Shown here in pieces: positions 24,727-39,211 of a stretch of 64,000 nt of DNA; positions within the stretch are counted from its first letter, which is position 1, and each line of letters starts with the position of its first letter. Below the pieces are notes generated by a model. The model was not told the origin of the DNA. It made no database searches and was given only the letters and a program-made list of their open reading frames with translations. The position numbers and the translations under genes were made by a program. The stretch is from Clostridia bacterium (lineage in GTDB: Bacteria > Bacillota > DAOUPZ01): NCBI GenBank assembly GCA_030625885.1, contig DAOUPZ010000004.1:1-64000 (forward strand), written 5' to 3'.

Positions 24727-24764
24727 AAAAAAAGCACTTCTCCCCTTATGGGGCGAAATGCTTC
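24727..24764 (-). terminator. trp leader terminator 1 (distal)
   Basis: Minus-strand stem AAGCATTTC/GAAGTGCTT with inner CCCC/GGGG and seven T residues. It is preceded by its own T-box core GGGTGGCACAGCG (24769-24784), so the leader carries two complete antiterminator/terminator choices in series. Confidence 0.9.
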
Positions 24765-25034
24765 ATTTCGCTGTGCCACCCATCTATAAATAACACAAAA
24801 ATCATAACTAGTCAATCTCTTTCAGGTACAGAAAAGATAAACCCTTTCGATACCCTATCTTTTTAACGTCAGAATCACGTCCACAGGTACTCTCGTAGAT
24901 TTCCCCTGGCTTCTCACGGGACCATTCAACATTCTCGCGTGTATTGGGTTCCCACCATCCCCAACTCTCTGAAACGTACTCAAATGCTTACTCTCCCCGG
25001 TCACAGAATTTATATGCTTTTGATATTGTTATTG

Positions 25035-38099: not shown

Positions 38100-38345
38100 A
38101 GTTATTTACAGCTTCGCTGTATTAGAGCAGGTAGCAACCAGCAGGTAGCAGGTAGGTCTCTAACTGATATTTCCTGATTTTTTCTTCTGCATTCTACCTT
38201 CTACGTCTTTTATATTTTGTTTTTTCATTCCTCGTTCAGCAGCTATAGGCTGCGCTCTTTCCTCATTCCTCGTGTTTTAATCTTTTCCTACCTGCTACCT
38301 GCTTCTATCATCTTTCCCTTTAAGCTGATAACTAATAGCTGATAG
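38100..38345. repeat. Mosaic repeat zone upstream of pepV
   Basis: Contains CAGGTAGCAACCAGCAGGTAG, TCTAACTGATATTTCCTG (shared with about 13495 in reverse), CGTTCAGCAGCTATAGGCTGCG, TTTCCTCATTCCTCGTG, CTACCTGCTACCTGCTT and AGCTGATAACTAATAGCTGATAGCTAA. No gene is supportable here. Confidence 0.6.
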
Positions 38346-38499
38346 CTAAAATATTATCCAAAAATCATAAAAAACCTGCAACTTTTTCATTTTACTAGGA
38401 AATATTACATCATTTTTGTCTGTTACCATAATATACTAACAATAAAAATATGTTTTTTAATATTTTTAGGTTTCAAGTGTTTTAAACAGGGTAAATATT

Positions 38500-38787
38500 T
38501 AACAAGAAGATAATAGATAACCGTCTTGACCCATCGCAAGAAAGTCCCGATTTCTGTTATTGCTTGACCGAAAAGAAGTAACTGAAAGTAAGTAATTAAA
38601 TGCTTTACAGAAAGTTGCAAGAAAAGCAAATCATCAACTGAAAGTTGGTTTTCTGGTAAGACTGGAAAAGAATGAGAGGATCTATTCAAGTCGTTTATGA
38701 AGGAAGAAACAAACGGGTCAAGAGCTTATATTAAGGACGGTTATCTATATCGATAAAGGGTGTACCAAATGGTACACCCCTTTTATT
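38500..38787 (+). ncRNA. Candidate structured non-coding RNA, class unknown
   Basis: The plus strand forms a closed multibranched structure. Outer stem: 38513-38525 with 38736-38748 (13 bp, ATAGATAACCGTC). Coaxial stem: 38526-38532 with 38715-38721 (TTGACCC). Inside are a stem 38608-38613/38650-38655 holding two hairpins (38615-38629 and 38635-38647), a two-part hairpin 38660-38692, and smaller helices in the 5' part. An intrinsic terminator (GGGTGTACC/GGTACACCC plus TTTT, 38758-38784) follows 10 nt after the outer stem. No coding frame with a ribosome-binding site is present on this strand. I could not match it to RNase P, tmRNA, 6S, SRP or a known riboswitch. Confidence 0.6.
38758..38787 (+). 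terminator. Terminator of the candidate ncRNA
   Basis: Perfect 9-bp stem GGGTGTACC/GGTACACCC, loop AAAT, followed by CTTTTATTT. Confidence 0.85.
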
Positions 38788-38799
38788 TGAGTCTTTTGC

Positions 38800-38986
38800 T
38801 TTCAGCCTTTAGCTTTGAATCTTCAGCCAATCTTTTGTTTTTCATCGTTCAGCGACCAAAGGGAGCGCTCGTTCCTCGTTCAGCAGCCATAGGCTGCGTT
38901 CTTTCCTCATTCCTCGTGTTTTAATCTTTCCCTACCTGCTACCTGCTGTTCGCTACCTGCTATTTTATCTTTCTACTTTCACCGAT
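38800..38986. repeat. Mosaic repeat zone after the candidate ncRNA
   Basis: Contains CTTTCAGCCTTTAGCTTTGAATC, TTCAGCGACCAAAGGGAGCG, the perfect hairpin GCAGCC-ATA-GGCTGC, TTTCCTCATTCCTCGTG and CTACCTGCTACCTGCTG, in the same order as in other zones. Confidence 0.65.
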
Positions 38987-39041
38987 ATGCAACAACGGGG
39001 ACACACCGCCTGTACCTCACGGAATGTCCCCGTTCTTGCAT
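38987..39041. repeat. 55-bp GGGGACA palindrome, copy 4
   Basis: The most symmetrical copy: starts ATGCAACAACGGGGACA and ends TGTCCCCGTTCTTGCAT. Confidence 0.82.
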
Positions 39042-39120
39042 ACATTTCTATAACTCCTTTTTTAACGATAGTTAAACCATCGCTCAACTATCGTTTAACA
39101 ATGGTTAAACAACCACTAGC
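39042..39120. repeat. Tail module with AACGATAGTT inverted repeats, copy 2
   Basis: Same tail as at 34291 and 48132, with the AACGATAGTT/AACTATCGTT inverted repeat. The following 90 bp are TTTATCTTTTCC and TACCTGCT words up to the SDR stop codon. Confidence 0.75.
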
Positions 39121-39211
39121 CACTTGCATCTTTTAATCCTTTATCTTTTCCTAACTACTAACTACTGTCTTTTATTCTTTCCCTACCTGCTAATGCCTGC
39201 CTGCTGCTTTC

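Follow-up and report, generated by a model that had tools for sequence, protein, structure and literature searches.

A candidate stand-alone structured RNA gene with its own terminator in a repeat-rich spacer of a Clostridia genome

Does the spacer between pepV and an SDR gene in this Clostridia genome hold an RNA gene of its own? Within the stretch of 64,000 nucleotides analysed here (the 64-kb window), a first-pass annotation had proposed that this spacer encodes an unassigned, stand-alone structured RNA ending at its own terminator. The candidate reads on the + strand, divergent from pepV and convergent with the SDR gene. Since the SDR gene lies on the - strand and no + strand gene follows the candidate, it is not the leader of a downstream gene, and a cis-regulatory role of that kind was rejected.

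The two outer stems that had been described, P1 of 13 bp and P2 of 7 bp, are both present (Table 1), and an ensemble prediction gave most of their pairs a probability above 0.9. The intrinsic terminator said to follow the structure is there as well, reading GGGTGTACC-AAAT-GGTACACCC-CTTTTATTTG, with a hairpin at 38758-38779 that begins 9 nt past the last pair of P1 and with CTTTTATTTG as its T-run tail; on the - strand, the T-run at this site is weaker and no terminator was called. Promoter-like sites numbered four, versus 2.6 expected by chance, so that the weak site upstream of the stems is no evidence when taken alone. Between the stems, the nested inner hairpins of the first-pass annotation found no support: positions 38533-38714 fold with a z of about 0, inner pair probabilities in the ensemble range from 0.4 to 0.85, and alternative interior folds lie within 2 kcal/mol. 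The CAGAAA/TTTCTG helix thought to enclose two of these hairpins can form, but at a cost of 2 kcal/mol relative to the best fold. Two short interior segments, GUCC (38544-38547) and GACCGAA (38566-38572), are predicted to be mostly unpaired.

Table 1. Features of the candidate RNA locus and its neighbours (positions in the window)
Feature	Position	Strand	Remark
pepV (dipeptidase)	start 38079	-	left neighbour of the candidate RNA
Single-copy island containing the RNA	38350..38790	+	1 match in 400 kb of genome
Weak promoter-like site ATTACA-17-CATAAT	38404..38432	+	tentative
P1 5' arm, outer stem, 13 bp	38513..38525	+	pairs with 38736-38748
P2 5' arm, 7 bp, stacked on P1	38526..38532	+	pairs with 38715-38721
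Purine-rich interior, local hairpins possible	38533..38714	+	z -0.02 and -0.01, no better than shuffles
AAGAAAGTCCC, stretch likened to RNase P	38538..38548	+	mostly unpaired in ensemble
P2 3' arm	38715..38721	+	pairs with 38526-38532
14-nt 3' bulge GAGCTTATATTAAG (GAGCUUAUAUUAAG)	38722..38735	+	small CUUA/UAAG hairpin possible
P1 3' arm	38736..38748	+	pairs with 38513-38525
Intrinsic terminator, 9-bp stem, AAAT loop, CTTTTATT tail	38758..38785	+	terminator prediction
SDR gene	end 39212	-	right neighbour of the candidate RNA

To place this architecture among others, we looked for enclosing stems spanning 100-350 nt at 93 terminator-like sites in a 400-kb portion of this genome. The longest belonged to the candidate, whose 15-bp run contains 14 Watson-Crick pairs, and the next best site reached 11. 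When the 351 nt preceding the terminator were shuffled with dinucleotide content preserved, stems of at least 13 bp arose in just 73 of 219,856 trials (about 3 in 10,000). The region 38511-38750 folds with a z of -3.3 to -3.5, as good a value being reached by none of 200 shuffles, but 19% of the 240-nt window-strands in long intergenic regions of this genome, where repeats and hairpins are many, attain a z of -3.3, showing that folding energy by itself proves nothing. Read on the - strand, the stretch gives an equally good fold (z -3.9). Among known RNAs of the same genome, the z is -3.9 for RNase P RNA and -2.3 and -2.8 for the 6S RNAs, and it is weak for the SRP RNA (-1.3) and a T-box leader (-1.5), so that a flat interior is compatible with a structured RNA. 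The second-best long stem beside a terminator in the 400 kb was found at L025:9647-9806, in a 240-nt window with a z of -5.6; it matched neither Rfam nor R1, a single-sequence covariance model that we built from the candidate RNA.

The candidate exists in a single copy in the genome, and the flanks of its island (38100-38350 and 38788-39211) consist of dispersed repeats, with 6-31 matches per piece in 400 kb. One copy of a 79-nt direct repeat lies on each side of the RNA (38225-38303 and 38869-38947, 95% identical); this repeat, of which full or partial copies occur across the genome, belongs to the GCAGC/CTACCTG intergenic repeat family. Downstream of the SDR gene, positions 38986-39042 hold a 23-nt inverted repeat with an 11-nt loop (TATGCAACAACGGGGACACACCG / CGGAATGTCCCCGTTCTTGCATA, 87% complementary). 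GC and AT skews are positive only over about 38500-38740 and mostly negative on either side. This purine-rich + strand agrees with a + strand transcript and, together with the single-copy island, with a + strand transcription unit retained in a repeat-derived spacer. GC enrichment is frequent among structured RNAs of AT-rich genomes; the GC content of the candidate is 0.35, versus 0.40 for the window.

On a larger scale, the candidate lies inside a segment of about 19 kb that runs from atpC (55686) to ywmB (36572). In 14 of 20 regions from relatives, atpD (with atpC where detected), ywmB and murA cluster within a few kb on a shared strand. The RNA thus sits in a lineage-specific insertion or rearrangement, which leaves a search for homologous spacers in those relatives without a syntenic target. 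Besides pepV, the RNA and the SDR gene, the segment carries genes for an L,D-transpeptidase, an ABC transporter, two ECF-type sigma factors, a Germane-domain protein, DnaJ, a radical SAM protein and a cation efflux protein.

Homologous spacers in relatives, a check that the first-pass annotation had suggested, were sought, and none was found in the twenty murA/ywmB regions searched. Overall, searches of about 435 genomes of the phylum, together with phages, plasmids and viral contigs, detected no homolog, a negative result that is weak because R1 rests on one sequence and the source genome is the sole member of its class searched. BLAST gave none in 40 phylum relatives, plasmids or phages, and exact core patterns gave none in viral contigs; three viral matches to a two-core pattern (L007-L009) were taken as chance, none matching R1 at the pattern site and L007 being coding-like DNA without the stems. 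With R1, no credible homolog was seen in 399 phylum genomes, for which few candidates per genome were scored, and the two weak matches were rejected, one lying within a long reading frame and the other lacking the outer stem. R1 likewise gave no credible homolog in the one-genome class of G002, in the 37-genome class of G084 or in the twenty murA/ywmB regions of relatives, and its local terminator-like matches covered only the ends of P1. When contigs were scanned with PepV, the only matches were unrelated loci from archaea and Pedobacter, and no near relatives came up.

The Rfam comparison that had also been suggested left the candidate without a family: over 38380-38850, a permissive scan (E<=10) returned nothing beyond chance scores far under the cut-offs. 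The best of these, potC, lies on the other strand with 22 bits, versus a gathering score of 44, and was dismissed as chance. The immediate neighbours, pepV and the SDR gene, had no PADLOC match, the one PADLOC-matching neighbour of the RNA being an ABC-transporter ATPase, and a retron or other defence-linked ncRNA was rejected since no reverse transcriptase or defence gene adjoins. Elsewhere in the window, a T-box leader at 24746-25013 on the - strand scores above the Rfam gathering score.

Could the same features arise without an RNA gene? An inverted match over a long range, devoid of RNA function, might by chance have arisen in AT-rich intergenic DNA beside a real terminator, which would belong to another transcript or to none. 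The interior without folding signal, the abundance of windows with equal z and the lack of homologs in the genomes searched would all be expected of such a coincidence, and a 13-bp stem by itself is expected about 0.03 times per 400 kb, or about 0.2 times per genome. We nevertheless hold it to be unlikely, considering that the directly stacked 7-bp stem cuts this expectation to about 0.001 per genome (a rough estimate from pairing frequency) and that the stem coincides with a single-copy island and a purine switch. The perfect 13-bp inverted ends, in repeat-rich and lineage-specific DNA, could also be read as the terminal inverted repeats of a decayed or one-off MITE-like mobile element. That origin is very improbable: several copies are expected of a dispersed element and only one exists in the genome, neither P1 arm recurs within one mismatch in 400 kb, no clear target duplication is seen, and the terminator lies just outside the repeat.

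Two further readings accept a transcript and give it another function. A short mRNA might encode a small peptide, for instance at 38697-38756 (MKEETNGSRAYIKDGYLYR), with the terminator just after the stop; the stop codon lies 1 nt before the terminator stem and an in-frame open stretch covers 38676-38753, but the frame has only 19 codons and starts within the fold, no ribosome-binding site is found at the proper distance and no small frame of the stretch matches Pfam, making this improbable. Alternatively, the stretch might belong to a cis-regulatory 5' leader of pepV, whose - strand orientation, together with the equally good fold of that strand and a promoter-like TTGCGA-18-TATTAT on it within the stretch, would suit this role. 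The stretch is separated from pepV by some 430 nt, a good part of which is repeat-derived, no - strand terminator lies in between, and both the tail of the terminator and the purine skew point to the + strand, so that we give a pepV leader very little credence.

Altogether, the balance tips modestly towards a stand-alone ncRNA gene on the + strand, present once in the genome and restricted to its lineage, whose product acts in trans. The stem, the terminator, the island, the purine bias and the absence of a downstream + strand gene agree with such a gene outside Rfam, so that the stand-alone ncRNA of the first-pass annotation holds in part, shorn of its inner hairpins and its RNase P echo. An enclosing stem unique among the 93 terminators and rare in shuffles, the + strand T-run, a folding z comparable with those of the genome's own RNase P and 6S RNAs and the lack of Pfam matches in small frames speak for it; the lack of homologs in our searches, the interior without folding signal, the weak promoter, the frequency of equal z in long intergenic regions and the low GC content speak against it. 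We infer transcription, action in trans and any partner from these features. The transcript would measure about 280 nt if it started near 38500 and about 345 nt if near 38440, and would end at its own intrinsic terminator. Its 20-bp bulged terminal stem would close and stabilise it, protecting the ends together with the terminator, and would leave a purine-rich interior, mostly free of pairing, exposed to a partner in trans. This partner might be a protein or mRNAs, contacted through the interior segments GUCC, which is predicted to be accessible, and GACCGAA. Much more tentatively, the candidate may be the first member of a new class of structured ncRNA restricted to an undersampled class-level lineage of its phylum, combining the bulged stem and purine-rich core with a protein partner in trans. 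Many such rare RNA classes are expected by the literature (PMC11109978). If real, the candidate provides an unassigned stand-alone RNA from a lineage in which hardly any relatives have been sequenced; its value depends on finding homologs, without which it is a further orphan among small-RNA candidates.

How does the candidate compare with known RNAs? A faint resemblance to the P4 strands of RNase P RNA (RF00010) had been pointed out, and AAGAAAGTCCC is indeed short and resembles such a strand. However, the RNase P models (RF00010/RF00011), including the P4 core, gave no match over 38380-38850 at E<=10, and the full RNase P RNA gene lies elsewhere in the genome (C33:20216-20567, 312.9 bits). 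The best alignment of the candidate to this gene involves another stretch than AAGAAAGTCCC and is equalled by 3% of mononucleotide shuffles, so the likeness is not significant; since the genome carries its RNase P, SRP, tmRNA and two 6S genes elsewhere, it is put down to chance. Divergent versions of these four RNAs were rejected because the locus matches none of their models and the genome has its own genes. This applies to the SRP RNA (RF01854), whose large version is found at C36:40102-40368 (210.6 bits), and to tmRNA (RF00023), found at C29:65006-65361, of which a tRNA-like domain is the hallmark. The raiA motif, or ModT, is a stand-alone structured ncRNA of Bacillota of about 200 nt; in some species an intrinsic terminator follows it, and many of the known cases are linked to comFC/raiA genes (PMC11706538). 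The candidate would likewise be a stand-alone RNA and has an intrinsic terminator, but the comFC/raiA linkage is absent at its locus, and a search with the raiA model (RF03072), which the first-pass annotation had listed, found no match at the locus or across the whole genome even at E<=10, leading us to reject a divergent raiA. The hallmark of 6S RNA (RF00013) is a long hairpin with a central bubble. Its model does not match 38380-38850, and a local alignment of the candidate with the genome's own 6S_1 is marginal, being equalled by 2% of mononucleotide shuffles and without support from Rfam. The genome's two distinct, good 6S genes (L005 and L006; 81.7 and 58.6 bits) both lie elsewhere; in its size and its long closing stem, the candidate is similar to them.
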